Below, in pieces: positions 4,119 to 36,055 of a stretch of 41,216 nucleotides of DNA. A program made the translations under genes and the position numbers. Every line of letters starts with the position of its first letter. Position 1 is the first letter of the stretch. This DNA comes from Heterotrichella gracilis. Lineage: Eukaryota > Sar > Xanthophyceae > Tribonematales > Xanthonemataceae. Location: assembly GCA_032358255.1 (NCBI GenBank), contig JAULBX010027008.1:1-41216 (forward strand), in the 5' to 3' direction. The notes beneath the pieces were generated by a model. It was not told the DNA's origin. It searched no databases and saw only the letters and a program-made list of their open reading frames with translations.

Positions 4119-6165
4119 GCCAGTGCATATGACACCCCCTGCGGATGGGCAGGAGATGTCTGTGCGCGTGGCTGACTTCCAGGTAGGCCATAGCTAGTGG
4201 CTGTGTACCCCTGCCCAACTCAAAACCTGCACTCAAAACCCTAAAACCCTGCTGTTTGTGTCCCACGCAGTGGCCACTGGGCGTTGCTGCTGTTGCATGT
4301 TGTATACCCAATGGAATCAAATGTTGTATGGTCTAGGGTTTAAGGCGCAGGCCAGTGCATATGGTACCCCTACCGGACCTGCATCCAATGCTGTGCACTA
4401 TGAGTATGGTATGGCTGGTGACCATATATCTACCGTCTCTGGCCCCTGAACCCCAAACTTGAACCTCAATTCCATGCTGTGAACCTAAAATTCCAGTGGT
4501 TTGTCCAGGATGGCACATACACCGTGGAAGGGTTGCTGGTGACCGACCTTGACCCTGACGCAGCCTACCAGGTGTTGCTAGAGTACGACAATGTTGCGGA
4601 AGTGTTCAGAAACATCGAGGCGTCTGAGACAAAGCTCCACCAAGGCCAGTTGCAGCTGGTGCAGGTGGGTTAAAGCCTACGATTTCAAACCCTAGACCTA
4701 CGTCACAAACCCTAAACCCTGAGCAACGAGGCATCTGAGACAGGCTCAGCCAAGGCCAGGTGCAGGTGAGTTGAAGCCCTGAACCCAAACCCTAGACCCT
4801 AGATCACAACCCTGACAACGTGGCATCTGAGACAAGGCTAGGTACAGGTGGGTGTGGGCGCTAGAACAACAAAGGGCCGTACATTTGTGGACCCAGTGGA
4901 TCATTGTAATGAAAAATATATAGCATTCTTTCCTGTTCATTCATCCATACATAACTGCATCGAGCTGCTCTTTTGCTATCCGAGGGAATGTGTGATGCAT
5001 GTGCTATGGCGTATCAGAGTCTGACATGAGCCGCACTCCTCTGCAGACCTGCCGGTGGCGATTCTTGCTCTTCACAGGGACATTTGAGCTGCACCTGAAG
5101 GTAAGGGTGCAAATGAAACAACATTCCTTGCCTTGCTTGTGCTGCAGCTCCTACTTTGGTATAAGCAACCATGTAGGCCTCGACCGCTCCTCTGCCTATA
5201 CTGCTGGAACAAAAAACCAATCTCGACTTTGTCTTACTTTGGCTCTTTTCATTAACCCCTTACTGCAGGTGACAGAGGTGCCGGAGCAGCGTATGGTGAC
5301 ATTTGAGCTGCTCAACTCGTCATTCATGCGCTACTTCTTGGGGACATGGGAGGTGAGAGGAGAAAGGGGTAAATTCTCAAGGGGAATGCTTGTAAAGGAG
5401 GGGAAATGCATATGGTTTTTGCATCTTTGAAAAGGACTGCAGCATGGCTGTACCGGGTTCTAGCCAGTGCTTGAGTGGCATGGTTTAGGGTTTAGGGCAT
5501 TTTAGGGGGTCAGGGCTCCAAAAATCCAAGACCCTGAATCGGCCGACTTCAAGTATGACTCCTGCAACAATGAAGGCACCCATGTGTGATTCAGATTGCC
5601 CCGATGAATGATGGCAAGACGCTGATCCGACACCGACAGACCATCACACCTATCCTGTCACCGCCAAAGTCAATTGGTAAGCGCACTGTTGTGGTTGTTG
5701 GGTCTCCTTGTACAATCACCATCCACAAGTACACTTAAAGCTACAATTTGTAAGCGCCCATTGTGCCAATGTTTCTCCATTTGCTGGGTCTCACTGTCCT
5801 TGAGCTGATTTAAAATTTGCAGGATGGTGTCACTAAGTACAAGAAATGGTCCCTTGCCGAACCCATTCAGTACAGGATTAAACTGTCTGATGCATTGATT
5901 TGAACTCGTGTGCAATCACGTTTGACTTGTTCTTCCCATGTAATGTAACAGCAAGGGCTTCGCAGCCAATTTGAAAGCATTGCCTTATGCCATATTTTTG
6001 TGGTGGAGTACTATTATATTACTTGATATAATGAAAGAAAGATAAATCCACAGCAATGACACTTTGTTTCACACTGCAGCACATTACACAGAGAGCATCT
6101 TCCTGCGGCAAGTGTCCCAAATTCTGGAGGACTTGACTGTGGCATATGGGCGGCTGGGTCAATGA
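4119..6165 (+). CDS. START-like (SRPBCC; COQ10/polyketide-cyclase type) protein; six exons, 5' end unresolved
   Basis: Exons are 4119-4182, 4497-4664, 5047-5100, 5269-5352, 5595-5676 and 6080-6165 (stop TGA). All borders are GT-AG and phases match, giving at least 178 residues. The product has the layout of plant 'polyketide cyclase/dehydrase and lipid transport' proteins: a first strand TYTVEGLLVTDLD, the helix DAAYQVLLEYDNVAEVFRNI, strands with TEVPEQRMVTFELL and FMRYFLGTWE, DGKTLIRHRQTI, and the C-terminal helix YTESIFLRQVSQILEDL. The fold forms a cavity for a lipid or quinone-like ligand. Plant relatives are organellar. The ligand cannot be read from sequence. The first codons lie upstream (see the 1977-4118 entry); a start at the Met at 4129 would leave no targeting leader. 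Introns 2 and 3 contain decayed copies of exon ends. Confidence 0.8.
4345..4420 (+). repeat. Decayed copy of the 5' end of the 4119 exon
   Basis: The sequence GCAGGCCAGTGCATATG at 4348 repeats the acceptor plus first bases of the exon at 4119. Similarity then fades over about 60 bases. It lies inside the following intron. Confidence 0.5.
4611..4856 (+). repeat. Three tandem copies of an exon 3' end plus donor, with CCCTAAA spacers
   Basis: The last ~55 bases of the exon ending at 4664, with its donor, are repeated at about 4723-4780 and again at 4815-4855. Both intronic copies keep the core CATCTGAGACA and a usable GT donor after CAG (gtgagt and gtgggt). The spacers between the copies are made of AAACCCTAGA and AAACCCTAAACCCT runs, so the repeating unit of about 100 bases includes the exon end, the splice site and the telomere-like spacer. 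Confidence 0.8.
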
Positions 6166-6431
6166 ACAAGAGGCGACAGTGTGTGTGGACAAGAAGGGTG
6201 CTTTCCCTTCAAGGCTGTGCGACAGGAGAAGCCGTGTACAGCCATGGCTGCAGGAGGGAAGCCATACTACAGGGGCCCCAATGCACATGCACGGTTTTCC
6301 TACCGGAGCGGTATTGCTGTTAATTGCTGGATCATCCCCCACGTTGTGCTATTGCTGGCATGAAATCTGCAAGGTTGCGACCTGGCAGCATTTGGCAATG
6401 CATTCATTGGAACCGCGGCTAACAGCGCATC

Positions 6432-6436
6432 TGTAA
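6432..6436 (+). terminator. TGTAA, candidate polyadenylation signal of the START-like gene
   Basis: TGTAA occurs on the coding strand about 270 bases past the stop at 6165, a plausible 3' UTR length for a green alga. Confidence 0.4.
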
Positions 6437-8052
6437 ACGGTTTTAAGGTTCACCTGAAGCAGCACCCAGCGCCACAGCGCTGTCTAGTGTTGCTTGAACA
6501 TCCTATGCTTATCAAAGCAATGCTGATATTGGCTATTGCCGCAATGAGCCACTCCCATGCATGCCGATGTTTTTGTCCGGGTGGCCCCCTGGTGTTAACC
6601 CTTGTTCCCCTGAGGAGTAGACTGCAATTGACCTCTGCGTTGCGTTTTCCCTTCGTTCTTCTTTCCTCCTATCGTGTCCTACCTCTGGACCATGCCAGCC
6701 CAACTTGGTGTTCATCATGATAGTACAATTGTACATAGATGCCGCTAGCGGTCCACACCCCATCCCATCCTCACTGAGTCGAGCCGCTCAAGCGACATTG
6801 TGGCAAAATTCCTAGAGGTGAAGTGTTTCGCTACATCATGAAATGTTTATGATAGGCATTCATGAATCACAATTTGAACTGTTATCAGTGATTCTGATTC
6901 ATTCTGACCCGTTGACAGATTAACGTTACCAGAGAAAATTCTTCAACAACAATTAAAGCTGCTCTTGCAAGACAACGCTGCATGGCATACATGTCTAGTA
7001 TTAATTGCTGAGCTCAGATACAGCGAACACATCATATCCGATTAAGAGTCTTCATGCATGCACAATGTGCCTCCAATTTCCTGAAAACTTTTGGTCACAC
7101 AGCTTCCAAGCTAGGCCATTGATGGTCATTAATGCCCAAGGAAACTAATATAAGGAAGTCAATTAAAATGAGCATACTGGTAAGCAATGCTGCCCGCGGA
7201 ATGTAGCCCGCGCGTGCACACAGCCGTGTGGGCAGCACCGCATCCAAACGTTAACGTATGTGCATGACATCTCAGACCGTAGTGACATCACAATGCGTGC
7301 GAAAATAAAACAAGACCTCATAGAGCAACTAGTTGAAACAACACAGTATATTGTCAATCCCACGCACACAAGCACACGTGGCACCGACGCGTTCACAAAG
7401 CTAGCAGTATCGAGTCCTAAAGTGTAACGCTTTATGACATTGGTGGACCAGCATAATCTCGCACCCTTATGCGATATGCTGAGCAGCCCATGTGTGCAGG
7501 CAGACAACACACACAGTAGCAGTCCCCTGACAGGACAAACATCCCAATCGATGGAAAACACAAATGAAGCAAGCACATTCACTTCTTCCACACAGGCGCA
7601 ATGATAGCATTATATCTATACATACAGTCTTCTCATACTAAACAAGCAAATTCCCTACCCCATATGCCATTCCAGTCCAGCGTTCATCGGTTTTTTGCAA
7701 GTGCCAAAGGCATGGTGTCTCCAATTTGAAAGGGTGCCCTATGCGGCAGGATTCACAGTGAAGCCCCAATAGGCATGGCATATAGATGCTAAGGCCCACC
7801 ATGCATTCCTGCATGCATCCCTCCGCCAATAAAGTGACTGGCAGCTGCGCCTGATACATCACACATACATATATACATATAGCTAGAACAGGCAATGCAC
7901 CAAGCGCAGCTGCCGGCCCCTGTAGCGGCCCTCCCCAACCCTTCCCCACGTGGCGCCAAACTACCACACATCTGTGCATCATGTACTTGCACAGCAATTG
8001 ACACTCCAGAAGGGCAGCCACCCCTCCCCATCCCCACCCATGTGGCACCGCA
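6437..8052. other. Intergenic region between convergent genes
   Basis: This 1.6 kb separates the START-like gene (plus) from the WD40 gene (minus) and should contain both 3' UTRs. It is more AT-rich than the genes. None of its open frames has convincing splice borders or a recognisable product, and I found no RNA gene. Confidence 0.55.
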
Positions 8053-11000
8053 CTACCAGTCATCTGCGTTCCACCTGCTTGCACAGCAGTTGAACTCCAG
8101 CAGGCTGCTGTAGTTTGTGTCAGAGACGGCCACAAACAGCTTGTCAGAATCGGGGCTGAATGAAACCCCAGCCACCTCCCCAAAAAAGTCGATTTCCTGG
8201 GACCGCATATAGCCAGACTGGGTGTCATACACATGGACAAAGTCTGCGGGCTCTACAGCTGCCAGGAAGCGGCCGTCTGGGCTGAAGCGCAGGGACCGTA
8301 TGGCCGCCATTTGGCCCCTCATGACCGCGAGCGAGGATCGCAGGTAGCGCACATCCCACACGCGCGTGGTGGTGTCTTGGTTGCCTGGCGGAGCGGGGGG
8401 TAGGGAGTTCAGCTTGCTGACAGGGGTGTGCATGCAGTGCTGGGTGAACTCCCAGTGTTTTGCAATTCAATTTAGGTTCAAGTCTTCACAATACAGCGCC
8501 ATGCAGGGTTCAATGCTTAGGCGCGTGCCCCGGGTGGCTTACTGGCCCTCATGGCGACCAACGAGGAGCATGCGGATGCACACTGCACGGGCTGGGTATC
8601 ACACAGTACAGCGCGATGTCATGCCCACGTTTCTAAGTGCATCGCCCAGAGGCGATGGCCACAATGTGGCTCTTCACCAGGACTCAACCCCAACCACCCG
8701 CCCCCCCCTCCGGTGAGACCACCATGGTTCAGCTAAGTTGCTGCTGACCAGGACCCGCCCCCTCACCTGTTGCCACCATGTTCCCGCTCGGGTGCCACCC
8801 CGCAGCAAACGAGAAGTCCAGGTGACCGTGCATGGCCGCCACGTGCTTCCCGCTGCTGAGGTCAAGCAGCAGCCCAGCTGGGTCATCACCCACCACGCAC
8901 GCCAGCTTGCGGGATGCGGGGTCCACAGCGGTGTAGTTGACCGCCCAGGGAAAGGAGAAGGCACTGGTGTGCACAGGATTAATAAACAATTTCAAAATAT
9001 ATACACAGGTAAATGCATAATTGTATAAATGAATGCACCTGGATATGCGGTAACACAAAACCGAGAACACTTTTTACATACAGGAGAATCACTCACTCAA
9101 ACCCACACGGTACAGTGAATGTACCAGTTCAAGAGTCAAAATCTACGAAGCCGCTGACTCCTTGAACATATGCCCTGGTTTAGGAGTCAGCAAGGAGGGC
9201 AGCCATCCTCTCAACGCGTCCCACAGCTCACAGTACAGCTACAGTGCCATGCGCGCCCAGGTTCGACGCATTTGCCAACAGTTTTAAGGGCTCAGTTCCT
9301 ACCTGGTGTGTGCGAAGGTCGCTGCGTCCAGCCCACGCACCACACAGTCGTTGTTGGCGCTGAGGATGCAGGTGGCGCCGCACGGCGAGTCGTAGATCTC
9401 CAGCCCGTTGGTGATGCCGTTCTCGTTGGCAGTGATGCGCTTGCTGCAAGTCAGGTTGACAGTTACAAGCATGCCAGGGTTCAAAATGCAATGCCCAGCC
9501 TTACGGATCATGGTTTAGAGGCCTCGTCGCATATTTTCAGCCGTGGTTGGTGGGTGATGTCATCTCACTGGCAGCAATGCGCTTGCTGCCGGCCAATCAC
9601 AGTTACCGTCACTTGTGCAGCCAATGTAAAACCGCATGCGGCCAAATTCAGCTATTCAATTGCAAGACCAGCTGATCAACTGCATCAAGGTAATCCAAGA
9701 ACAAGCATCCGAGCTTATAAACACACCACCACAGTCACCACAGTTAAAATTTAGCTGCAAGTACTCTAGCAATACAGTTACGTTGGCAGGCAGCCCTATA
9801 TGCCTAGCACCAATCGTACTACTCCTGACAGTGCTTACACCGCCTCTGCACTTGCGGTTTCAAGGTAGCTAGACCACGCGAAACAAGCCAGCCCAGTTTG
9901 CAACTCCCCTTACCTGCATATGAAGCCAGGTGCATGGTCCTCACCCACACTTCCCCGTTGACACACTGGGAGCTACAATGCACCCATGAAATGCACAGCC
10001 GGACCGCCAACACCAGGTAATTGATTGCACTTTAGAACGTGCTCACACCTGAGCAACCGACCAGGGAAACCCTCTCAGGGCTTTCCAAATGGGAGATGTG
10101 GGCGATGCCCATGCTCCCAGGCTGAATGCCAAATTTCAACTGCAATTTATTGCAGGTGTTCACTTGGGCACTTTGCCCGAGTGAGCGTATACTATTGTTT
10201 AACATCCGACAAGTTGGCTTTTTATGGATCGTTGGCAGCAAGCTTGGGAGCGCCGAACGATCTCTGGGCTTCTGTTCAAATTTGCAAACATACGCGCTCG
10301 CCCAGAGGAACCTGAGGGGAGCTCCCAGGAAGAGCCGGGAGGGGCCCTAGGAGCATAAGAAGCACACACGTGAACACTGTCTTAAATGATCTTTTCCCAC
10401 GCGGCCCAGCAATGCAGCCAGAGTACCAGCCAGTAGTGCAAAGTCTGCGCATATCCCGACTGCATTTATTTAGTCAATATCATTTCTGAGGGTACAAAAT
10501 TTCAACTGATCACTTGGGACCTCCGATTCCTGCATATATTGCCAGGAACATTCACGTTCCTCAGCACCAGCCCTCCATTGAAGCCACCCACTGCCAATCC
10601 AGATCAACACTATGCTGCCAGGGTCAAAATGCATGGCTAATAATATCATCAGCAATTTCATCGGAGACAAGCGCTGAAGGGAAATGCTGGCAAATTACTG
10701 CCCAATCTTCCGATTGCACCAGCATTTACCTCCATAAGAAGCCGGAGTATTTCATGTTCCTGACCACTAGCTCGCCGTTTAACCCCTCCGCTGCTATTAT
10801 GCTGCAGTTGATGCACATGGTGCTAATCTCGCGCGTCCCAACCCAGGCTTATGGGGTGCGGCGGGTCCGCCACGATCCTTTTTGGTACTATTATTGGTGG
10901 CTAATGACCAAAGGTGTGAAAGTGGCCTTTGATTGGCTCGGCTGCATTTACCTGCATATAAAGCCGGGGTCATTCACGTTCCTCACCACCAGCTCGCCGT

Positions 11001-12298
11001 TGAACCCCCCCGCTGCCACGATGCTCCCTTTGACGCACATGGTGCTGATCTGCACACACCCCAACCCAGGCGCGTGGCGGCCCTGCGGGCCCCCGTTGAG
11101 GTCCATGATCTTCTCCCACTGGCGAGACATGGTGCTCCAATGCCGCACACAGTTTTCGTGCGTGACAAAGATGTCGTGCTTGGAGGTGGCCCACAGCAGG
11201 TTGCGCAGCTGGAAGTGCACATAGGTGGACTTGACTGCCCGCGAGTTGCGCCAAAAGTCAAAGAAGTGCCCGTCCTGCAGACACACACGCATGTAATCGG
11301 CCAGGCCCCCAAGCCAAGCTGGCTTTTGCCCTATCCTTGTGGTGAAGTAAAATCACCTAACAAAGATTGCAACTATCCTTGAATCTTGTGCAGGGTTGGC
11401 AGTTGCACAAAAGTCATGAGGAGGTTGCATGAGGTGGAATAGTGACACAAGACAGAGCATCTTTAACCCCCATCAGCCAGGCTCATGTGAAACTGGTTCC
11501 CCTGTAATGCTCAGCTGTACCAGGACGATGACAGATGCCCGCCGCATTTTGCCAGAACCATGTGCAACCCCAGTGCAGCGCGGTTGTCAACCCCGATGAG
11601 GCATGCAACACGCCAAGCAGAAAAAACGAAAAAACCAGGAACCCCAAAACCACCCCCTCCAAGGTATACAGTACCTTTGTCACCGAGCTGCACTCAGCCA
11701 GGAGTGCATGGTCTGCTGCCGCCACCTCCTCCCGCAGGTTCAGGTAGTTGGTGTACTGCGCCAGGCGCTTGGCCTGTGCACCAGTGGAAAGCTCAAGTTA
11801 AGCCCCCCTCCCCCCTCCCAAAGCAGTTTTGCCCCCCACTGCTCACACAGCACATCAGAAAAAATGGGAAATACATTGTGACAAAGAACAGATGTATGGT
11901 TTTCCTTACCCTGTATGCCTCTCGGGTGATGTCATGGGACTCCCAAGGGATGCCCTGCGCCAGGCATAACACACCAGCCAGACGGTAAGTAAAGTAAATA
12001 TGTGCGTTCTAGCTGCCAAGTGAGCCTGTTTGGGTATCACCCATGGACCAGAGCCTAGTACTATGTCCGGTGTGGCAGATGGTGGCCAAACCTGGTGTGC
12101 CGTTTCCAGCAAGTGTGTGCTACCAAGTCACCATATATGCATGCCATTGTCATTGCGACCCTAACTGATAACACTATGGTTGCTATGCAACTTCTGCCAA
12201 GGTATGGTGAACAGTACCTGCATATCCTTCCCCTGCTTGAACTGCTCCTGAGTTGTATCCTGAAGATCCTCCTCATCGTCACTCAGTTCCTGTGCCAT
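8053..12298 (-). CDS. WD40-repeat protein of the conserved SPAC2A9.03-like family; seven exons, complete
   Basis: Exons on the minus strand are 12298-12218, 11954-11910, 11773-11675, 11274-10952, 9443-9303, 8963-8767 and 8384-8053 (stop TAG). Phases match throughout and the sum is 1,218 bases, 405 residues, about the usual length. The start MAQELSDDEEDLQDTTQEQF, then KDMQGIPWESHDITREAYR, is the acidic leader and IPWE box of this plant/fungal family. It continues HFQLRNLLWATSKHDIFV, ITNGLEIYDSPCGATCILSA, AMHGHLDFSFAAGWHPSG, NQDTTTRVWDVRYLRSS, AVEPADFVHVYDTQSGYM and QEIDFFGEVAGVSFSPD. The blades form a beta-propeller scaffold for protein partners. The family's cellular role is poorly defined, so none is assigned. 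It is divergently arranged with the giant protease gene. The fourth intron (10951-9444) carries decayed copies of exon 4 and exon 5 ends. Confidence 0.92.
9559..9612 (-). repeat. Decayed copy of the 5' end of WD40 exon 5 with its acceptor
   Basis: The core GCAATGCGCTTGCTG followed at a distance by AGTTAC matches the exon 5 start and adjoining intron at 9428-9470 (GCAGTGATGCGCTTGCTG, then AGTTAC). The copy lies upstream of the real acceptor, inside the same intron. Confidence 0.6.
9909..10875 (-). repeat. Three decayed copies of the 3' end of WD40 exon 4 inside intron 4
   Basis: Copies lie at about 10711-10875, 10523-10610 and 9909-9975. The first is the longest. On the minus strand it still reads LNGELVVRN-like protein (exon 4 has FNGELVVRNVNDPGF) and is followed by a GTAAAT donor like the real one, but it has a one-base deletion further upstream. 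The second has lost its GT. The third keeps TATGCAG/gtaagg, a better donor than the real one. The copies also include intron bases beyond the donor (ATTTACCT on the plus strand), so the duplicated unit spans the junction. Confidence 0.8.
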
Positions 12299-14746
12299 GC
12301 ACAATCCCCATAAAACAAACAAACAACTGATATGTAGCAACCCGCTTCATCTTTCAAATATGAAGGCGTTGGTTGTAAGGAGACAGGTTTAGAAAGAAAC
12401 TTGACCAACTTCGGGAGCTGGCCCCATGCACAGGGAGACCCATATCACACCAGCCACAATCACACCTTTGACCCGCCGTCCCTGACAAACGCTGTTTGCC
12501 ACAAGGACGCTAACCCCTTCACTGCTGTTGGCAATGGCAGCGAACCTAAGGTGGTACACACGTGCTTTGAACCCCATTGAGGGTGTGCTGAGGGTTGAAG
12601 ATATGTTTGTGCTGGGTTCACACCTCGACGTCTTCCCAAGCGGAGGTGCAGTCAGGCACAGTGGCCCCTTGGTGGTACACCTCAGCAACACCAGCAGACG
12701 CCATGGGTTGTGTAACCCCACTGGGCAAGCGATTTACAGCGTAGCCATGTTCGTGCTTAGGCCAAAAACTGCAAGCGAAGTAAAACGAAAACAAGCCAAA
12801 ACTGAACAAGGATCTGCTGCTCAGACCTCAGATGACCTTCTCATTAGTGCATAGTGGCAGGACTGAACAGCAAAGGTTGCTATGGTGGCACAAAAACAAA
12901 CTACGCCTCGTTTCCAGTATGGCCCGTATGCGTATAGTTCATGGGTGGGGGCTGGGTGGGGGAGTCTCAGCGAGGGTCGTAGTGGTCAAGTTGGGAGGCA
13001 GGTGTCCGAGGACACAGCAACCGCGTCCTAAATCAAGGTGGGCTTCTGTTTTCTCACACAGCCTTCTTTTATTGTGCGTCTTGTTTATGCATGGGGGCTG
13101 TTTCCCCAAAAGTGTCCTCGATTTCGTTTAGTGTATTGTTAACCCCTGGGGACCCCATGCAGGACCCCATGCAATGGGCCATTGCCCTTCCTCATGAACT
13201 CCATGTGGTCCCACCGACCACTGAATGTTATCAAATCCACGGATACCAGGTACATGCCAGCCTTCACCAGCATACCTGAGATCCTCTGTGGCATGCAACA
13301 AGTGTGTGTGACAACAACAGTCGTGATAAAGCGCTGGGGTACCGTCCATACGGGTTAGCTTAACGTGGAATTTTAGGCTTGTGTTGGCAAAGGCATTGAC
13401 CAATAGATTTGATTTTCTCGACCATAGCCTGTCTATCTTCTGCTTGCCCACCTATTATTGCCGTTTAAAAAGTATGTCCTTTCATCCAATCTCCTTTCCA
13501 TGCTTCTTCAGTCTTCCTTGGTTCCTCAGTATTTTAGCATAGTGGATCTTGCACAGTGAATTTTTGTGACTTATATTCAGGCTGACTAGGTTGACCCTGA
13601 CCCAGTCATATCTCAGTTACTTTTAAGCGGAATCCCATGGAACCCATGGGAATTTAATTAGCGATGATTACAAACAATGACTCAGATGAATTGGCTGTAT
13701 TCTGGCGCAGTGGCTGTCATGTTTTTTGTGCGGCAGGTGCGGCCACGCGATGAGGAGCATCTGAACACCCCATTTGGCGGTCTACTCAATACTGGTCGGG
13801 TTCAAGCGCATGGGCGTTATTGAAGATGATCTGGAGTAGCTAAGACTGCCCAGTTTAAATACTGACTGACTGACTATATGTGGTCAACAAACAGCAACAG
13901 AGGGGTTTTGCAAGTTGTGTACCAACTCGAACGTTTGCACGAAAACCTCTCTCCCTTACCAAATGGAATGCATGTTCTCAATTGATCCAGAGCATACCGC
14001 AAACCTGCACACGTACACTAGTGCACACTGCGAGGCAAGAACCCCTTTACCCTATGCGCTAGGGTCAGGTGACGTCATGCAGGGCACAAAGGTACTGCCT
14101 GGTACAGCTCTAGTTGGTGCTGGCACTAGCCCTAGCTAGCTTTCTGCTGTCACCCCCCACAATCTTGTGTGCTGCAGACACAAAGCGAGTGTTTGCTTTC
14201 CTCACTCCATCAGTGCGTTGTCTGATGGGCGCAAACTTGCTGGTATGGCGCGCAAGTACAACCACATACTTGTACCTCGGACGCAGTACCATAGCAAGCA
14301 TTCATAAAGCACCTGCATTTGGCGCGCCCACCGTGGGTTCTACAGTAATCGAGGCCCAAACACGAAACCTTCTTTCGTTCAGCCTTGGAAGCAGGGAAGC
14401 CTGCTTATGGCAACACCCCGTTCAATCTGCACCCTTGCGCTGCCCTTGAGTAACCCTCCGTTGAACGGGCATAGTTCCTTGACCCGCGGGGTGCGTATTG
14501 CCGATAGAGAGAGACCTTGCCAAAGCCCCACCACAATACCAATTCTACGTAATGTGGACGTACACGTTGCCTTACCCCACGAGGAACCCTGCGTAACTGC
14601 CTGCCGCATCCTGGCTGCTTCATTCTGCTGCTGCCCAGCGCTTCAGCCCAGCAACAACTTGTATTTGCGTGCAAGTAATGTTGCAGAACCTTCCGATGAC
14701 TGGGAGTTTGTGTCCAAAACGTGTTGCCTGTAGAACTTTGTAGGTG
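12299..14746. other. Divergent intergenic region between the WD40 and giant protease genes
   Basis: This 2.4 kb should contain both 5' UTRs and promoters. I see no exon with good borders on both sides that encodes recognisable protein. A weak possibility is an acceptor (TGCGGCAG) at about 13735 followed by an open stretch VRPRDEEHLNTPFGGLLN, but nothing joins it. A short ACTG run (ACTGACTGACTGACTA) starts near 13860. No TATA box stands out close to either start codon. Confidence 0.5.
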
Positions 14747-14845
14747 ATGGCAGGCCTGTGTGGCCCCCAAGCCCACGGGGCATGGGTGTGGGCCCATCTG
14801 CTGCTGTGGCTAGGGCTGGCACTGGTGCAGGGCACCCTGGCACAG
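14747..14845 (+). other. Signal peptide exon of the giant protein
   Basis: The first exon encodes 33 residues: a long n-region, a Leu-rich hydrophobic core (HLLLWLGLALV) and a small-residue cleavage site near GTLA/Q. It ends at a GTAGGG donor. This is the only evidence for secretion, but it fits the Cys-rich and Pro-rich modules that follow. Confidence 0.75.
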
Positions 14846-17800
14846 GTAGGGAAGGAGGGCACCCCAGCTTGGTGGAGATGTGGTGTGCAGCCTGGTTTGC
14901 AGGGATGCACGGTGGTTTGCAGGTTATGTGATGGTTTGCAGGATACAGCCTTCTTTGCAGGATGCATGGTTTGCAAGGCTTTGCAAGGGTTCTATGTGCA
15001 GGATGCATGGTTTACTGCAGCCTGTGTGCCTTTCGTGCTGCGTGTGCAAGGTTGGCGTTCCTGCACTACCATACCACTGCCCATTGCCGGCTGTGTTGCT
15101 GGCTGACTTGCTAATGGATGCGCACTGAGGGCACGGTGTGGACTTGCGCAGAGCTCCAGCGGGTTCTTTGGTCTCATCTTGGCCCCAGACGGCAACGTGC
15201 AGACGCGGTTTAGGTACGCGGGAGTGGCCCCTGGCGCTAACGCTAGCTGGCCCGATGTGGCGCCCAGCGCTGCCCTCATCCGCGACCAACGCCAGGTAGG
15301 GCCTTTCATAACCCTCAGGTTTCTGAGTCATACTGCACACCACTTACCCCCCATTTGTCAAGACCCCAACCACCACCCACCCGCCACTGTTGCACCAACC
15401 CACACCATGCACCACCAGGTGGGGGCCAGGCCCACTGGCCAGGTTTGCTGGAGTGGCACCCCACACCACTGTCAACCCACTGCCACACCCACCCACCACC
15501 CACTGCCACACTGCACCCCGTTGTCACTACACTGCTAAGACCCACACCAATTTCACACCACGGCACAGCCACCCCACTACACCACCACCACCCACCCACC
15601 ACTCCCACACCGCTGCAGTGTGGGTCCTGTTGGGCTATGGCCAGCGTGACCGCTGTGGGCTACCACCTCGCCATTGCCAACCCAGCTGATGCCGTGCCGC
15701 AGCTTAGTGTGCGCCAGGTGAGTATACACTGGGGTACCACCCTGTGGGGTACCACCCTGTGGGGGGCTGCGCGATTTCACCCGGTAGTACACCCCTGCGT
15801 GGAGGGTCTTACTTGCACCTGAAGTACACCCCATGCAGCAGGAACGCAACTGCACCGGCAGTACAATTTTGCGGGGGGTAAGGGAGGGGGCCCTGTTTAG
15901 GGTTTGACCGGGCCGTATCCCCTGGCCGGATTCCACCTGCAACACACCCCCATTGCTTCAGGTGCTGGATTGCAACCGGCAGTACACCCCATGCGGCGGG
16001 GGTTGGGAGCTGTCAGCCTACCAATACGTGACTGGCACAGGCCTGGTGCCTGAGGCCGCCTACCCCTATGACCCCTCCACGTCCGCCGCATGCAGCCAGT
16101 CTGTCATCCAAGCACAGGTGGGTACCTTGATGTCTACATTTGCATTACACCAAAATCTGCATCTACACTTGCATTTGCATCTGCATCTTACAAATTACAT
16201 GCGGCCAGGGTGCATCTCAACTCAGGGAGACCAATAACCCTTGGTCAGGGTTTGACAAGGTCCCTCGTTTGCCGCCCAGGTGGATGCGCGCAAGGTGTAC
16301 AAGACGCTGGGGTACGAGCGCGTGCCTGCAAACAATGAGACAGCGCTCATGCAGGCGGTGTTGCGCCAGCCTGTGGCTGTGGCGGTGAAGGCGGACTTTG
16401 ATGCATTCAATGCATACCCGCGGGCGGGGTGGCTGTTCACGGGGCCCTGCAGCAGCGGGTGGGTGTGCGTGTGCATGTGCATTAGGTGGCGATAATTGCG
16501 CACGTGCATGTCCGTAAGCGGCTTTGGTAGCCATGTGGCACAATGGAAGCGGGCTTTGGGGCAATCCATGGCTACCCGCACGATAGTTTTGGGGTTAGTG
16601 CAGCGGATGGGTGGCTCAATTCTGCACCTACATGTGCATGTGCATGTTGTCATTGCTGATGGGATGTGCTGGTTTGGGCCAGGTTCACGCACGTGATGGT
16701 GGCGGTGGGGTACAGTGTCTTCCCCAATGGCACCGCTTACTGGGTGCTGCAAAACTCCTGGGGCAGCGGGTGGGGGCTGGGTGGCATGATGCGCTACCAG
16801 ATGGGCGCCAACCTATGCGGGATAGCGGCCCTCGCGTTCTACCCCACAGGCACATCCAAGCCTGTGCCATATGGTGGGTGAAAGTTTGCATATGGAGTGC
16901 CGGGCGCCATACATTGATGCCTAGTGAAACATTTTCATGATGGCATCCTCTAGGGTTCAAGGGCCATAGTTTGACCACACCAATTGCAAAACACATGATC
17001 CTCACCACCCAACACCAACCTATTCAGTCGACCAGACCGCCGATCTGTTACCGGCCGCTGCAGCGCATGCTTCACTTGCCCCACATTTCACACGCATAAT
17101 TAGTGATCATCCTACACATATTCCACACGCTCACACGCATGATTTCATATGTGATGATCCCACACATAATTACATCCATTATCACATTCATTAACGACAA
17201 CACACACTAAATCATGTGCCATGATGCTCAATCCCCCTTTCACACGCACACACGCAGTCGCCCAATCAGCCGACCTCATGCCGCCCCGCTACAGCGCCTC
17301 CTTCACATGCCCCACCGGCGCGTACATCACCCAATGGACAACCTGCTCCATTGAGTGCAAGGTGTCTAGCGCAGGCTCAACAGCAGCACCCGACACCCGC
17401 CTCATCATCAAGAATGTGCAGGTGGACAACCAACCCTAATCTGAACACCAAACCCCTGAACCTGCTTCATCCTGAAAACTTGCAGATTGGCAACCAGCCC
17501 AAAACCCTTAACCCACCAACCCAAAACCCTAAACATCAATGTGTGGGCTTAGCATCCGCATCCGACACCCGACCCATCATCATGAATGTGCAGATGGAAA
17601 ACCAACCCCAAGATGAAACCCTATACGCCTGATTGTACTGGAGTGCTATAACTGCAAATCACCTAAAAAAACATGCACCTGTACCAACAAATGTAACGCT
17701 GTAGCTGCAACTGTGACTGTGCCCGTGCAGGTGTCCTGCAGCGATGCCTCAACTTCCTCCCTTGACCTCACCAGCTACTCGCCATTCTCGTGGTACCCGC

Positions 17801-23800: not shown

Positions 23801-26800
23801 AATATGTCTTCACCCTGCCAGGTTGTGGCAATAGAGGCAACATGTGGGGATGGCACCAAGCTGCTCTGGGACCCAGGATTCACGCAGTCGCTCTGCTCTA
23901 ATCAGGTGCGATGGGGCCAGCAAATTTTGGGTCGCCAACATTTAGGGCCAATAGTTGTAGCAGCTGAATTGTGGTACCCACAGCAAGGGTAATATGGTCA
24001 TTTTAGGACCTTCTTTTCGTATCAAATTATCCTTGCCAGGTTCTGCGCTCATGTCGTATGAGTAGCTGCTGCCATCTCTGCACTTTGCAGGGCTGGGATG
24101 AGGATCTTCCTCCCAAAGGCCACTTCTCCAATGCTGTGGAACCAACGAAATCACCCCACTACACTCCACCGCAACAAACCCTTAACACGCCTCACCCCCC
24201 TGCAGGTGTCTTTGTCAGTGAGCGTTACACTTGCAGGGCAGGCCAGCTCCTTGACAGCCATGCTGTACCGCCTCAACATGGACTTGCAATCCCAAAACAT
24301 GCCAGGGAAACCTCAGAATAAACAGAACACCGAGAAAAACACATACAGAAAACCATGAATGAAGACACTCCCCTCTTTTCCCTTGCCAGGTGTCTTTCTC
24401 AGTGAGCGTTGCGGGCCAGGCCAGCTCTTTCACAGCCACACTGTACCGCCTCACACAGTCCGACCTGCTGGCCCAGCTGGGATTCCCACAGCTGCTCACC
24501 CCAGACTTCACTCGAAACGTCAGGTGAGCTCAGCCTAAAATATAGGTTTTGTTTAAATATACTTCGTGAGCTATTAATAAAAATAGTTAAAAATAATAAC
24601 AAAGAGTGCCCCAACAAGGGACCCGCCAAGGGACCCGCCTGCAAAACTGATAACCCGCGTGGCCTAAACCCTGACCATTGCCTGCAGGACCGCCGCGTGT
24701 CCCGATGGAACCCTAGCTGTAGGGTTTGCCATGTCGCCCGCGCAGGGCGTGGGAGTGGTGGGTGCGCAGTACATGTCCGTGAAATGCGCAGCTTCCAGCA
24801 TGCCAGGCAAGTCGGGGTTGGAATGGTGGTGGGGAGTGGGGTGGAATGGTTGTGTAGGTGGAGCAGTGCACTGGTGGTGGGTGGGGTAGGAGCGGGTTGA
24901 GTAGAATTAGTACGGGGGTTCCTCGGGGGTGATTTATGGCCTTTGCATGGATGTTCAGACAATTATTGGTACTTAATGGTGTGCCTGATGATCTGAATGA
25001 TAATCGATGGATGGTTTGAGTGATGATCTGATTGTGAATCGATAGGTGATATAAATGATCATCGGCATGATGATCGATACATGGTATGAGTGATGATCTG
25101 CCACACAGACAATTGCACTGCACAGGGTGCACCTGTGATCTGGTAGATGATTGGATGCTTAATCTACAACCATCCCGCGTGTGTGTAGGTCGAGGATGTA
25201 GGGTTTACATGGTGATCAGGGCTTGTATACTTGGGGTATATCTTGAACCCCTACACTCTAAACACACCAGACAGGACTTCAGTATGCCTGGGTGAATCCT
25301 AAACCCTACATAGCCCCTGTGTTTTGCTCGATAATGACCACCTGTGTGCCCACACCCACAGCCCAACCCCCCTCTCCCCTCCGGCCCCCACCTCCCCTTC
25401 TCTCCCCGCCCCCTCTTCGCCCCCCTCCACCCCGCGGCACCCGCTCCCCACCCTCCCCTCGCCCCCCGCCCTCCCCGCCCCCGCCCCCACCACAGCCGCC
25501 CTCCCCGCCACAACCGCCCTCCCCACCCATGCTCCCCTTGACATACGGTGCGCACCCTTCTGGATGACCCTGCATGCAAAGTAACTGCATGTTCACCCAT
25601 AACCAAACATCACTAACAATGTATGTGCACTGTAAAGCCGGACCTGGGACATCAGAAAGGTAATGTTTAAATAAAGATGGTTTGGAGGAACTTTGGGGGG
25701 GGGGTCATCATTATTCTGTTCTAATAGGGATGTCCCAGGCGCATCTCACCCCTATGCCTGTGTGCCTGCCACCACTGCTAATGCAGGTGCACCTCATCCA
25801 GGCAAAGTGAAGGTGTGGCAATTGGCAAGCATGCTTTCTTATGTACAATAGTACTTATGATGTGGATGAAATGGCAGTTGTTTGCATTCCGTGCCCCTGC
25901 AAATCTTCAACCCTAAACCTAAGCATGGACCCTAAGGCGCAAACTTGAAACCTAAGAATCCGGTATTCAATTTTCGCACGTGCAGTGCCTTGACCAATCC
26001 CTAATCCCTAAACTTAAACCCAAAAACAAACGTGTCTTCACATCTTGCATGCAGTGCCTGTGGAGCCTCTGGCCAACTTCGCCTGCCTCACATGCGGTGA
26101 CGCGTCCCCTGTCACCACCATTCTATGCGCACCTGGGGAGCTCATCACCCAGCTCATAGTGAAAGAAACCCTCAACGGCGGGCCTGGTGTGGAGTCTGTG
26201 TGGCTGGGCAACGTGGGCATGAAGTGCGGCAACAGCACCGAATACGACCTGCCCCTCATTTCTAGTAAGTGGGCACAGCCAAACCCTGAACCCTAATGTG
26301 TACACTGTAAGCCCCGCAGGCAGGGTAGGTATCAGTTGTTTCAAAACCCCTTTAATCCTTGGCCCCTCACGAATTGACCGTGATGTTTAAGGAATTGCAT
26401 TCGTGGCTCAAGGCCTTGTTGGGTTAAAGAAGTGAATTCTTGCAGATTCACAATGCCAGTGCGGTATCGTTTGTTTTTCTGCAAATACATGGCTTTCGTA
26501 TGGCAGTAATACTGCATCATGGCAATGGGCGCATGTGAGAGCATCTGCTTTTACCCCTGCCACACACCTGACCCAACTCCCTGTGGCCCCTACCACCACC
26601 CTCACCCGCCCACCCCACCCACCACCCCACCCACAAAGCCCCACTGTTCCCCCCTCACAGGGTTGCAGGACACCGCTGTGCCCATCTTCGGCATCATCAA
26701 CCCAAGCACAGGCCACAGTGCCACCTACTCCCCCCCCGGTGGCATGGCTGTGTTTTCCACCTTCACCTCGCTGCGCACCGCAAAGTACCCCGGCCTGGAG

Positions 26801-29800
26801 TCATTCATGGGCTACCACGCAGGTAGGGAATTAAAGTATTATTACATGGGTAATCGGATGCATCAACAGTCATTCATGGGCTACCTCCCAGGTAGGGTAC
26901 ATAGTCATGTGCAGCTCAGCAGCACAGTGAGATGAGCTGTCATTCTTGCACACGCGGCGCCCAGCAGTTACGCTTTGGCTCTGGTACTTTATTGTGTGTT
27001 TTAATGCCCACCAGTTTTATGTGATTTATTGTACATCTGCACACCTCAAACTACCCCGGCCTGGAGTCGCTCATGGGCTACCACGCAGGTAGGGGCCATG
27101 CAAGTAGACGGAATTGCATTCAACTTGCGCCCCTCACAGCACTCTTTATATGGGTACGTGTTTTGCAGGTGCTACCACCTGTGCATGCTGCCCATGCTGT
27201 TTGATCATTCACTTAAATATTTACTTATTTTGTTATTGTTTTTTGTTTCCATCAGATGGGGCCGTCCTGACTCCCTTCTCCTGCCCGCCGGGATGGTACG
27301 CAAAGGGCCTAAAGGGGAGGGGGTTATACTACTTTGGGCGCAACATCGTAGACACATTCCAGGTGGTGTGCGAGGTGCAGGCTGAAGGTGAGTGGAGAGG
27401 GGGAGGGGGATGGTGCGAAGCCTCTCCCCTCCCAATCTGTGCAGCTGTGTAACACTCCACCTGCCATGTTTCCTGCAAAGGGGGTGTAAAACGATAGCAC
27501 TTTCTCGCACATAAGGGGTATCGCGTCCCACTACCTAAACAGGGTTTACTGACCCCAAATTCCATCCGGAGCTCTAAATGACCCTGTGTGGTGTGACATG
27601 TCCAGGTTTCAACCCGTGCGTGGCCAACTACAGCCTTGTAGGGACAGAATGCGTGTCCAACATAAAACGTGAGTAATTGCAATGCATTTCATGCAAGGTA
27701 GCAGGTTAAGCTGTAGCTCACAAACCCTTAGCTGTATGGGTCCACCTCCACGCCCTACACTTGCCAACAATCACCCACTTCCACACACATTGCCAATGCA
27801 GAGCCCTCCACCCCTCACTGCCAAGTAACACACCCTCACAAACTGCCATTCCCACAACCAATTGCCACTCCATGTAGCTGTACTGTACCCACCCGCCCAC
27901 CCCTTGCCACCACAGCACCCCCTTTCCCGCCAACGCCCCCTCCGCCCCCACCGGCCCCGCCCCCGCCACCATCCCCCCCTGCACCCCCCCAGCCGCCCCC
28001 AGCGCCCCCCTTTGCATGCTCTAACGTGGCTCCCAGCTCAGTCTACAAAATTGTGGGCATGGACTATAGCACGTACAATATGGCATGGAACTCGTCATGG
28101 ATCGACTGCTGCAGGTGGGGTGTGTGGTCTAGGAGACAGGTTTTAGGGTTCAGTAGGATGTATGTATGTAGGGGTCAGCAACAGAAACCCTACACCCTCA
28201 AACTTAAACCCTAAACCCTTTCCCTCTGCAGGCTGTGCGGCACCACCCTGGGCTGCACCACTGGATGTATGTAGCGGTCGGCAACAAAAACCCTAAACCC
28301 TCCTTTCCCCCGCAGGCTGTGCGGCACCACCCTGGGCTGCACCCACTGGATATACCTGACCTGGGCGTCAACAACACCGACCGCCAGCGCTTGATCCTTG
28401 ACTACAAACCCATACAGCAGAGCCCTCTTTATTTGACCCACTCGCAGTTAACCCTGACACAAGAACCCTAAACCCCCTTTCCCCCGCGCAGGCTGTGCGG
28501 CAACACCCTTGGCTGCACCCACTGGATGTACCTGGGGGTGAACAACACAGACAGCAGCGCATTCTGCATGGACATGCATGGGGAAACAGAGCTGCAGTCA
28601 TTGCCAAACCCACTGCAATACACAGGAACAATCACAGGTAGGGCGCAAACCATGAACCCCAACCCTAGACTCTAGTTTGTGCTGGGTTCATCGCAAAGCC
28701 GCTGCAACACACGATGACAGTCACAGGGAAACCCTGGCCTGGTGTGTACCATGCATATTGAACATGCAGGGAGTAGCAGCCAGCCTTGTACACATGGCGC
28801 CAGGCAGGGTTTTGACCTGTGTTTACACCATCTGAATTTTGGGAACTTATTGTCAGGGGTTTCCCAGGCCTTCTTGTTAGGGTTTTGTGGAGGGTAGCCC
28901 CCCCTCCCTTGAGTTGAGAATCACACAATGCTTGCATGGATTCCTGTCCTCGCCTCCCACCGCCAGTGTCATATATCGTCGGTGCGGTGTGCAGGGGGCA
29001 TGGCCTACTCCCCACCACCACCCTCACCACCGCCACCACCGCCACCGCCGCCACCGTCACCCCCCAGGCCCCCTCGCCCCCCCTTCTCACAGCCAGGTAC
29101 CCCCAATCACGCCCCATCATATCTGATCACTAGTGCTGTGACTGTAACCCATGGGCAATGCCAGCTACTGCCAGTCACACACCCATGCATTGCCATGCCT
29201 TATCATATTCTTCTGTTCCTCCCCACACCCACCCATCACAGTGCCATTGCATCTCACTTCACTGCAAAACCCCAAGTCATAAACCCTAACCAGCCTCCGT
29301 ATTGCACCCCCCGACCACCTCCGTCTACACCCCTACCCGCCCCACCCCAAAGCCTCCTACTCCTGGAGCCTGTGGTGGGGGCAGCACATGCAAAGGGAGC
29401 GAACTCTCTTTGCTCTAAATCAGAAACCATTAACCACTAATCATAGATGTCCAATCACCCTCAGCATCAGCTTGGCATCTCCCTCCCATAACTCCCTCCA
29501 CCCCGCCTCACTCTCTCACTCACACCCAAATCCACACTCACACTCGCCCACCACCCATCCCGCAGCCTCCTACTCCTGGAGCCTGTGGTGGGGGCAGTAC
29601 GTGCAAGGGGGGCAGGAAGATACGAATGGGGACTCGATTGAGGAGACGCCTATTTACGTGTGCTATGTGGACCAAGATGGGACTGCCAAGCTGGGCAAGA
29701 CCGTGGGCACAGCCTGCAACATAGGTGGGTGGGGTACAAAGATGTACCCATACCGGCGCTAAAGGAATATGATAGGACTATACTCCTATTATTGCCTAAT

Positions 29801-32800
29801 TACCCTTGGAAATATAAAACATTGCTCCATTTTTGCATATCGCATTTGTACTTTTGATATTCTTGACCCCACCAAAATTATATTATAATATTTATATATA
29901 TTGTAGGCAGTGAAAGAGTTACGAGCAGACGGATCTGGTCACTCGAAATCTGCTACAGCACCACATCACACTATGGTACTACCTGCACTCCTCCTACCCT
30001 TCTCTGTAGACTTATGGAGCCCCCCACCCTGTCCTGTGTATGACAAACCTTACTTTAGCAATCCTTGTATCTGAATTAATGACCCCTAAAATCAACTCCT
30101 GTGTGTTCTAGGCCTGGGGGGAAGTGAGATCTCCTACAACAGCGGCTCTATCTACTACCTCCACTCCTCCTACACCCCCGTGTGGACGCCGGACCAGCCC
30201 GCCACCCCTGTGTATGACAAGAAAGGGGTGGACGCGGTGTGTAAGGGGCACTACACCAATGGGGACCACTGCGGGTGGGCAGACGGCGATGGGTGCCACA
30301 TTGGGTGGGGGGGTGAGGAGCACGTGCTGACTGACTTCCTGTGGCTCAGCTTGACAGGTGGGTGGGGTTGGTGGTGGAACCCCTCACCCCTCATCCTGGA
30401 AGGGGGTGGGGCGCAGGTGCAAAATACTGTATGCTTTGCCATCAGCCCGACTCAAATCATCAGGTGTTGCCACCTCCTTATAATTATGCTTCACCAGCAG
30501 CATGTGCACCATCGTCATCATCACCACCATCATCATCATCACCAGCATGAGGACCAGCAGCACTGCCACATGCATCGCCAACATCGCACCCCATTCCCCG
30601 CTGAATGTGTTGAGCTTGATGATATCAGCCCCCCCTTCCTTGGAACATATGTATGCATGCATGCTACATCACCCCCCCTCCTGCATCTGACCGTCCTCCC
30701 CCCCCTCCTCCCCTCCCACAGCCACCCCTCCACCGCCCCCCACGATGCCGATCACATATGGTACGTTGCCACCCACCCACCCACCCTACCCACTCTGCTT
30801 GACACAGTCACACTACTGCACCCAAACCCCTACACCCTTGGTTGGCATCGCCACGTTGCAGTACCCTACACGCTAAAACTGCTTGACATTTTCATGCAGC
30901 TGCACTTCAATCCTACAAGCGGGTTGGCATTGCCACGCAACTGTGCAATATGCATGCTCTACCTACCATTGCATGGGCAGACCCCCTTACACAGCCTGCA
31001 CTACCGGACAGAGCACATAGTGGTCCGCGCCAAGCACAATGCCATCCAGGATCACTTAACTATATATACCCTGAACATTGGTCTGCACCCAGCACAGTGC
31101 CACATCCCCTTACTTCTACACCCTACACAGTGGTATGCATCTAGCGCAGTGCTACGCTGCCGTTGGGTCATGCAGCGGTTGCACAGGCAGCTTGGTGCTG
31201 ACCCGAATTGTGCTCGGGGGATGTGATGGTTGCCTCAGACCTTGAACTTCAAAACCTCTTTATAAATAACCTTTTAGCCGGTTGTGTTTTCTGGTATTTA
31301 AATCCTGGAACCCAGTCCTTGGCCCTAAACTGTGGTCCATCCTCCGCGCAGTGCCATCCACCCCACTGGGCGCATGCAAGGACTGCTTCGGCAGTGTGGT
31401 CCTCACATTGCTCTGTGACGGGGATGCGCTGGTCACCGCTTTCTGGATCTATGAGACCAGCCTTGGAGGACCTGACAACCAGGCGCCGTGGCTGGGCACA
31501 GTAGGGTTCAACTGCTTTGGGGACGATGGGAATCCCCAGGTGCTGAATCCACGAGTGAATGGTGAGTGGGTATAGCGCATGTGAAATTATAAGAAAAAAT
31601 ATATTTTGCAAAAAATGCATGAGTAGTTGAGATCATCAGATGGCGCTCTTACAGTAATAGCAACCAGCATAATCTACCCTTTATAAGCCTGTCTATTATT
31701 GTTGCGTATGTTGTCTCCCAGCTTTGATGGTAGTTGCACGTTGCATCGGTGTCTGAGACCAGCAACGGACCCCAGCGTGCAGCTGAGGTTTATGATTTGA
31801 ACTACTGCTTTGAACCCCTGGAAATTTGCCTCTTTGAACCCTGCTTTCCCACATGCGCCCACATGCTTTTCCCAATGGTGCAGGGCTGAACCAAGGCGCA
31901 CAGGGGGCGCAGGTGTACCCGCCCGGCCAGCTCACAGCCTTCGCCTCCTTCAACGCATCCGTGCTCACCCTGCCTGGCACCGTGGCCATGGACAACTTCT
32001 TGGGCTACCAGGCCCTGAGCAACACTGCCATGAAGCAGTTCTCGTGCGCCAAGGGGGGGTTCGCCAAGGGTGTGCGCGCGCGCGTGCTGGAGTGGGGGGA
32101 CCGCACCGTGCTCACCAGCTTCCAAGTGGCGTGCGAGCAGCGGGCGGCAGGTGGGGGATGGGGAATGGAGGGGTGCTGGTGGTACATGTGTGTTAGAGAG
32201 TGTGCTGGAGTGGGGGGACTGCTTCGTGCTCACCGGTTTTAAAGCATAGAGGACAGCAAGCGAGCGGGGTGTCGTCTTCAACACCCCACCTTTGAACAGC
32301 AACACCGTGTGGCTGTGGTGCAGCCTTCAACCCCTGGGCAAGGCAACATTACTTTGAATTGTATCTATATTCATACATAATTTAATAACATTCATACTTT
32401 TTTGTTGTAAAATAGTTGTGCTTGGTGCAGACTTCAACCCATGCGCGGATGGCTATGAGGTGAAATACTCAAGCAAGGGGATCCCCTCCTGCTCTGTGTA
32501 CAAACCACCTCCACTGCCGCCACCGCCCCCTCGCCCACCACCCCGCTCGCCACCCTCCCCACGCCCACCCCCACCCTCACCTCCAAGCCCCCGCCCACCG
32601 CCACCATTGCCACAGCCACCACCCTCCCCTCCTCCACCACCCTCCCCTCTCCCACCATTGCCGCCCCCCCGCCCACCGCCACCATTACCTAGACCAGCAC
32701 CCCCACTCCCGCCTGGACCACCACCACCCACCCCGCCACCATCACCACCACCACCACCACCCCCTCCATCACCACCACCATCACCACCTCTCCACCCACC

Positions 32801-35514: not shown

Positions 35515-35714
35515 CTGTGTACCCATCGCTGCACCTGGCAATGCAATATCCCTGTCAGGTGACATGGGAATCCTTTGTTTCAGAGGTAGACGCGCATGCA
35601 ATTGCAGTACCAAAGCCAGGAGCAACCCAATTCACCCGGTGCATTCTCCAGAACATGGCAACTTGCATTGAATGGTCTAAAAGGGCTATTCCCCCTTACC
35701 TCATTAACCCTGCC

Positions 35715-35905
35715 CTCACAGATGCCGAGGTGAAGGCCTGCTGCTGCTGCTTACCGTAAACTCTAAAACCCACCTTCATAGATGTGCGAGGTGAAGGCCT
35801 GCTGCTGCTTACCGTAAGGGGCCCTAAGAACCTACACTCTGAATCCTAGAACCCTTTACAGTAACCCCATTTTCATTTGCGTGAGGTGAAGGCCTGCTCT
35901 GCTTT
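35715..35905 (+). repeat. Triplicated exon segment of the arrestin-like locus
   Basis: GAGGTGAAGGCCTGCTGCTG occurs at about 35727 and 35789, and GAGGTGAAGGCCTGCTCTGC at 35883. The first two are preceded by CACAGATG and CATAGATG (acceptor-like) and followed by TTACCGTAA. Spacers contain CTAAAACCC-type runs. Only the third continues into the downstream arrestin-like sequence. Confidence 0.75.
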
Positions 35906-36055
35906 GGCCAGGGCCATGTGGATGCCCGGGTGGTCATTGACAGGGACTGGTTTTATCCCGGGCAGGCCATGCAGGGGAGTATGGGTGATAAACAACTCGA
36001 CGGCAGAGTTCAAGTTAGTCAAGTTGGTGGGGATGATGAAGCATGTATCTGTTCA

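Follow-up and report, generated by a model that had tools for sequence, protein, structure and literature searches.

The stretch analysed here (the window, 41,216 nucleotides) comprises bases 1-41216 of contig 450 of a Heterotrichella gracilis assembly, which holds 68.5 Mb in 903 contigs. Four genes were modelled in the window, and their 52 introns were curated manually with the aid of a small gene finder. Many of these introns contain diverged copies of their own splice junctions, and local duplications of the same kind, often with a telomere-type repeat between the copies, are found elsewhere in the genome. The four genes are the following:

Minus strand: DnaJ-like gene with 2 introns
3414-6166, plus strand: START-like gene (gene B) with 8 exons and 7 introns, with the reading frame open from exon 3 on
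8053-12704, minus strand: WD40 gene (gene C) with 8 exons, 7 introns and an open frame of 428 codons
14747-33473, plus strand: papain-like protease gene (gene D) with 37 exons, 36 introns and 2273 amino acids, with a papain-family domain near the N-terminus and proline-rich parts

The first 282 residues of the protease, the only part run against Pfam, match PF00112 with an E value of 4.7e-45. The START-like gene matches Polyketide_cyc2 at 1.6e-05, which is under the gathering score. Among 120 listed of 1286 relatives, the WD40 protein is closest to P0001 (81% identity) and then to Trebouxia sp. C0006 (59%); the relative in Myrmecia bisecta has 55% identity.

A first-pass annotation of this stretch had claimed that introns carry copies of the adjoining exon end together with its splice site, in about 17 clusters, and this observation is confirmed. 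For each junction, up to 60 exon and 40 intron bases were compared by alignment with the remainder of its intron and, as a control, with the reverse complement of that remainder. Of the 104 curated junctions, 27 score above 88 in the forward direction and none in the reverse complement, the cut-off being the reverse control's own maximum and chosen after the control was seen. With other introns as the null, 31 of the 104 junctions reach p<=0.05 and 13 reach p<=0.01, the small null limiting these values. The matches exceed the reverse control elsewhere in the genome as well: 56 of 330 junctions pass forward and 6 of 330 reversed in 165 introns from 23 loci outside the window, where exons were predicted only. 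Two sampled contigs, C1 (L002) and C100 (L009), have a GC content of about 0.35 compared with 0.50-0.60 in the other loci of L003-L021, and no genes are predicted in them under this model; they are possible contaminants and were excluded from all counts.

An iterative search with a Smith-Waterman score above 95 and at least 20 exon bases, run without a reverse control at that cut-off, counts 33 exon-end copies spread over 22 of the 52 introns, a number above the 17 or so clusters claimed earlier. Matches with fewer than 20 exon bases were likewise excluded from the codon-position and exon-side-edge counts given below. Self-Blast of the window gives 22 direct and 6 inverted local matches of at least 30 bits, and one dinucleotide shuffle of the window gives 0. 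The following copies were catalogued in addition to those that lie flush with a repeat, which are listed further on:

4351-4398, plus strand: copy of exon 4119-4182 and its acceptor, sited in the downstream intron (self-Blast, iterative search)
4722-4768, plus strand: inner donor copy of exon 4509-4664, preceded by telomere-type DNA with a score of 109 (iterative search)
About 4813-4850, plus strand: additional copy of the end of exon 4509-4664 (by eye)
9526-9606, minus strand: acceptor-side copy of the WD40 exon ending at 9443 (identity 0.78)
10527-10596 and 9904-9997, minus strand: donor-side copies of exon 10952-11274 (identities 0.81 and 0.72)
10720-10870, minus strand: donor-side copy of the same exon (identity 0.79)
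15766-15807 and 15819-15886, plus strand: two acceptor-side copies of exon 15962-16117 (identities 0.79 and 0.74)
17012-17084, plus strand: acceptor-side copy of exon 17258-17421 (identity 0.74)
21067-21156, plus strand: inner acceptor-side copy of exon 21321-21523, in intron 20725-21320 (identity 0.71 over 89 exon bp)
21989-22061 and 22099-22157, plus strand: two donor-side copies of exon 21762-21854 (identities 0.81 and 0.76)
24185-24294, plus strand: acceptor-side copy of exon 24390-24523 (identity 0.83)
26868-26899 and 27037-27106, plus strand: two donor-side copies of exon 26661-26822 (identities 0.91 and 0.88)
29327-29400, plus strand: acceptor-side copy of exon 29566-29724 (identity 0.85)
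29945-30046, plus strand: acceptor-side copy of exon 30112-30357 (identity 0.77)
32188-32267, plus strand: donor-side copy of exon 31884-32150 (identity 0.77)
35720-35900, plus strand: arrestin-like cluster with gaggtgaaggcctgct repeated and telomere-like DNA between (by eye, without a gene model)

The outermost copy is the functional splice junction, as the first-pass annotation had proposed. Spliced at the outermost copies, the 37 exons of the protease give a frame with no internal stops over 2273 codons. At intron 9444-10951, which is 1508 bp long and holds four copies, the WD40 protein aligns without gaps to both P0001 and P0002, and P0005 has two extra residues just upstream of the position of this intron. 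The inner copies decay near-neutrally. In 25 alignments from genes B, C and D, inner and outer copies differ at 148 of 605 first, 135 of 604 second and 190 of 598 third codon positions, as expected when the inner copy is free and the outer copy collects silent changes. Junction alignments from the window and the sample have an identity of about 80% in exon parts and about 65-76% in intron parts. No firm signal of selection was seen on the splice dinucleotide of the inner copies; GT letters are kept in 47 of 58 cases, like their surroundings, and AG letters in 46 of 51, slightly more than their surroundings.

Two regularities claimed earlier do not hold as general rules. Donor copies downstream and acceptor copies upstream of the real site is an arrangement that is nearly automatic within an intron, and it does not always apply: the copy at 4351-4398 includes an acceptor but lies in the intron after its exon. 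Successive copies are more diverged on the donor side of the introns starting at 21855, 26823 and 29097 but not in those at 9444, 15718, 17422 and 28115, so there is no rule.

Introns with copies are longer. Median lengths in the sample are 230, 311.5 and 508 bp for introns with 0, 1 and 2 copied junctions (p 1.6e-5), and in the window 280, 379.5 and 1508 bp, the last being a single intron (p 0.007). Intron length and the presence of copies are not independent because longer introns give more room for matches.

The local duplication process extends beyond junctions. When the sample is cut into 100-bp pieces, a local direct match is found for 88 of 524 junction pieces, 52 of 524 intron pieces and 120 of 2727 non-gene pieces; the corresponding numbers for the window are 20 of 185, 38 of 263 and 10 of 242. 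A sharp period of nucleosome or Okazaki size was considered and dropped, since the periods of local pairs range from about 100 to 350 bp with no single sharp peak in an analysis that under-detects short periods.

Introners, mobile elements that make introns, would leave related sequence that is shared among introns and provides both splice sites; at the level of 8-mers, the three commonest in introns are telomere-type words led by AAACCCTA, and the remaining common ones are G+C-rich. The motif CCCTAAA occurs in introns 56 times in sense and 23 times in antisense orientation, with a single match in exons. It is present in 44 of 61 introns with a junction copy and in 52 of 156 without (p 3e-7). 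The difference is also seen within length classes: the motif is found in 74% of 19 introns with and 23% of 47 introns without a copy at 250-350 bp, and in 75% of 20 and 33% of 21 at 350-500 bp. In the whole assembly, perfect (AAACCCT)n repeats of two units give 7154 matches, overlaps counted, compared with 4 for the reversed pattern, and repeats of four units give 211 and 0. Among the matches listed, contigs C70 and C140 begin with (AAACCCT)n arrays and other arrays are internal; the repeat is identical in the two settings. The density of AAACCCTA in the sample is 752 per Mb, and that of a control word 41. When an internal telomere locus is defined by at least 4 heptamer seeds there are 121 loci in 271 kb, which extrapolates to roughly 30,000 in the genome.

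By the same definition, the sense strand of introns carries the C-rich form at 47 repeats and the G-rich form at 15, an approximately threefold bias; the numbers are 23 and 34 in non-gene DNA. Selection could account for the C-rich bias in introns because the sense sequence TTTAG|G resembles an acceptor. Exons have 2 such repeats, or 27 when single seeds are counted. Per kb, introns have more such repeats (62 in 63.5 kb) than non-gene DNA does (57 in 163 kb).

The position of the motif at the exon-side edge of copies suggested the structure B-[repeat]-B', with direct copies B and B' of a local stretch on either side of the repeat. The two flanks are direct copies (score above 100) at 54 of the 121 loci and inverted copies at none, while 6.0% of 868 control points have such flanks. 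Matched by class, flank copies are found at 32 of 62 intron loci and 92 of 625 control points, at 21 of 57 non-gene loci and 102 of 2073 control points, and at 1 of 2 exon loci and 52 of 523 control points. When B has to end and B' to start no more than 12 bp from the repeat, at a score of 70, flush duplications are found at 51 of 147 internal telomere loci and at 3 of 140 random points. Target-site direct duplication thus occurs at some internal telomere loci. The flush cases are divided into 39 of 100 loci in the sample, 4 of 21 in the window and 8 of 26 among loci picked for long arrays. With one flank inverted, no flush duplication is found at 148 loci, one more than in the direct test. 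The length of B is 31-147 bp with a median of 69 in the sample and the window, and down to 19 bp in the loci picked for long arrays; among the latter, the flush test adds short duplications at L035 and L029.

The reverse test starts from 62 local direct pairs, of which 27 have a telomeric spacer (score of at least 55); the outer flanks are telomeric in 17.7% on the left and 9.7% on the right. For 21 pairs with at least 80% identity, the spacer is telomeric in 14 and the outer flanks in 28.6%. The repeat is confined to the space between the copies in 21 of the 51 flush cases, for example at L013 2405 (B of 132 bp), L033 504 (24 bp, one mismatch) and L029 478 (21 bp, two mismatches). Three-copy arrays with a repeat between neighbours are present at L006 8121-8512, L013 7809-8109, L020 8199-8387 and window 28220-28629, hinting at repeated rounds at one place. 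The repeat-flanked copies in the window are as follows:

17374-17519, plus strand: outer copy B with the end of exon 17258-17421, donor and intron start (flush score 82, length 146)
17524-17534, plus strand: interstitial telomere repeat between B and B' (abutting 60 bp with a telomere score of 122)
17546-17691, plus strand: inner copy B' with decayed donor (iterative and flush tests)
20655-20726, plus strand: outer copy B with the end of exon 20574-20724 and donor (flush score 90)
20735-20744, plus strand: interstitial telomere repeat (flush test)
20746-20831, plus strand: inner donor copy in intron 20725-21320 (iterative and flush tests)
28220-28287, plus strand: copy B with acceptor and exon start, inner copy 1 of intron 28115-28491 (iterative and flush tests)
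28288-28301, plus strand: interstitial telomere repeat AAACCCTAAACCCT between two copies (flush score 142)
28304-28371, plus strand: copy B' with acceptor and exon start, inner copy 2 (flush test)
28464-28475, plus strand: interstitial telomere repeat flanked by inner copy 2 (28307-28453) and by the real acceptor and exon (28483-28629) (flush score 78)

The 43 flush duplications in the sample and the window fall on exon plus intron in 27 cases, on intron only in 1, on non-gene DNA in 15 and on exon only in 0. Consequently 27 of 28 in called genes include a splice junction, with predicted exons outside the window, or 26 by the stricter rule that one copy itself spans exon and intron. The sole intron-only case, at 28288, duplicates an inner junction copy. 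Five of the eight events with at least 85% identity are at junctions and three in non-gene DNA. Missed genes are likely among the non-gene copies because several of the 15 show CAGGT-like motifs by eye. Part of the skew towards junctions is expected, since an event within an exon would disrupt the protein and a pair within an intron should fade at about twice the rate.

Some further features of the window were noted. The protease has a second papain-like stretch at about 19006-20327, noticed by eye (QCAACWAFATVS), and several proline-rich linkers. It also has GC-AG introns at 17899 and 24807 (GGAG|GCAAGT and CCAG|GCAAGT). Two alike stretches of about 400 bp, at 38160-38560 and 39850-40340, were noticed by eye where no gene is modelled; a phage search with the stretch at 38.2 kb gave no match.

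Taken together, the evidence points to break repair with telomere repeats rather than simple tandem duplication. On balance we think it rather likely that a process of local duplication, linked to telomere-type repeats through the repair of breaks, lies behind the junction copies, which would be just one class of its visible products. A staggered double-strand break would be filled in so that a stretch B of about 20-150 bp is left on both ends; after the addition of telomere repeats (AAACCCT)n at the break, joining of the ends would produce B-[repeat]-B'. Such an insert would remain a weak point, and arrays of the form B-[repeat]-B-[repeat]-B could come about when later rounds copy B together with the repeat. 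If B spans an exon end and its splice site, the protein would be kept only by splicing at the outer copy; the intron would grow by B plus the insert while the inner junction copy would decay. We infer the staggered break, telomerase as the source of the repeat, the fill-in and the joining of the ends, and also the relative timing of repeat and duplication. CST also acts at telomeres, and CST-Pol alpha is therefore a candidate for the fill-in.

Several observations weigh against this explanation. In 30 of the 51 flush cases B or B' has telomere DNA no more than 40 bp from its outer edge as well, compared with a background of 5.7% of random intron 40-mers and 1.8% of non-gene 40-mers, and a single insertion does not predict telomere DNA there. 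Of the 14 young pairs with a telomeric spacer, 10 are also telomeric in an outer flank and 4 between the copies only. At L035 identical 19-bp copies flank a perfect array, yet telomere DNA is found beyond one copy. The outer-edge signal comes in part from B-[repeat]-B-[repeat]-B arrays, where the outer flank of one pair is the insert of the next. No flush duplication is found at 96 of the 147 loci, and among 16 long-array loci the flanks are duplicated at a score above 100 in 3 and matched in inverted orientation in 1. The association of motif and copy is gone in introns above 500 bp, with the motif in 8 of 11 with a copy and 4 of 5 without, and the motif lies within 20 bp of the exon-side edge of 16 of 58 inner copies compared with 11.9% of points drawn at random from those introns. 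Telomere-like DNA is present in the abutting 60 bp of 10 of the 33 window copies and in 12.7% of random intron 60-mers, so that the telomere link within the window is modest.

The outer-edge telomere DNA favours repeated rounds or an order in which the repeat came first, and it was this finding that made the chief rival explanation somewhat more probable and the main one less so. According to that explanation, interstitial telomere repeats are fragile sites and the duplications arose later, when units already bearing a repeat were copied in tandem without telomere addition at that time. Fragility of interstitial telomeric sequences has been described (in the part of PMC6410037 available), and arrays that carry a repeat in each unit occur at L006, L013, L019, L020, L032 and L036 and at 28.2-28.6 kb in the window. 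A repeat that stands only between the copies, as at L013 2271-2566, L003 721-930 and window 17374, speaks against the order of repeat first, which we hold to be possible but unlikely. Plain tandem duplication, by replication slippage or by CST-Pol alpha fill-in and end joining with the telomere-like motifs incidental, would suit the 35 of 62 local pairs that have no telomeric DNA between the copies, and a known route yields small tandem duplications at breaks (abstract of PMC8355091). However, the excess of flush telomere repeats over random points and the spacers that are more telomeric than the outer flanks make it improbable.

The motifs might instead be selected regulatory telo-boxes unrelated to the duplications, since telo-boxes are known from plant 5' regions and introns. 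This is very unlikely in that the density of AAACCCTA given above is much higher than the 155 per Mb in Arabidopsis and 81 per Mb in rice given in the accessible part of the same source (PMC3022908), and the motif is common in non-gene DNA and flanked by duplications. The first-pass annotation saw in the copies a route by which introns lengthen and new splice sites arise. Longer introns are indeed found where copies exist, and the signals required for new introns through tandem duplication of AGGT-bearing exon segments are present, with exon ends and starts that read CAG|GT and AG|G. In a registered comparison of donor and acceptor context, however, only 1 of 182 introns is above the 99.9% null and 0 above its maximum, and such an origin of new introns is still less likely. 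Least likely of all is an artefact of assembly or haplotype merging. The assembly consists of 903 contigs and the sample includes at least two low-GC contigs, possibly contaminants, but the window copies are about 10-40% diverged, the inner copies decay like free DNA and the outer copies keep the frame.

The interpretation given in the first-pass annotation was half right. A local duplication does span the junction as claimed, but many copies are not plainly tandem, a telomere-type repeat often lying between them; this repeat, and the duplications in DNA called non-gene, had been missed. The apparent self-copying of splice junctions seems to be a by-product of telomere-linked duplication that is also active in non-gene DNA. 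It is conceivable, though we lean towards doubt, that telomere-repeat addition at staggered breaks with repeated rounds is a leading mutational process in this genome, with inserts that may number in the tens of thousands and in many cases have a copied target of 20-150 bp, and that this process lengthens introns, seeds decoy splice sites and prefers exon-intron junctions. If so, the maintenance of chromosome ends would be linked to gene architecture by a target-copying repair that leaves a decaying and datable scar in the intron. Pairs of outer and inner copies, one selected and one free, would then serve as a natural clock by which to time both the growth of introns and the supply of cryptic splice sites.

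Interstitial telomere repeats with a local direct duplication are already known, and what sets the present case apart is that their scale is large enough to shape introns. None of the titles and abstract starts listed, at most 20 of up to thousands per search, describes duplicated intron junctions flanked by telomere DNA; with lists of that length, and with subscription papers mostly outside such a search, this is weak evidence of absence. The short interstitial telomeric sequences of mammals are similar in that the chromosome-end repeat is inserted internally. The available parts of two papers show duplication as a minority outcome there, with direct target duplication at 6 of 130 insertions in rodents and 4 of 25 in primates (PMC2246262) and, attributed to staggered breaks, at 3 of 66 in the horse (PMC7215372). 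Here it is found at 51 of 147 loci with copies of up to about 150 bp. Unlike the mammalian cases, as far as those parts describe them, the present genome has its 7154 two-unit matches in 68.5 Mb, telomere DNA is often also found at the outer edge, and nearly all duplications in called genes include a splice junction.

At breaks with 3' overhangs, CST-guided Pol alpha-primase yields small tandem duplications (PMC8355091), a route in which fill-in of staggered ends and end joining give two direct copies, as proposed here. The abstract of that paper mentions no telomere repeat between the copies, whereas the direct copies here often carry an insert. The plant telo-boxes share the motif AAACCCTA and are also found in introns (PMC3022908), but the repeats here differ from them in density, in their presence in non-gene DNA and in their flanking duplications. 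The duplications covered in the accessible part of a review (PMC3443670) resemble those described here in that gene segments are duplicated and the choice of splice site is altered. They differ in that introns lengthen here rather than arise, and in that telomere DNA marks many of the events.

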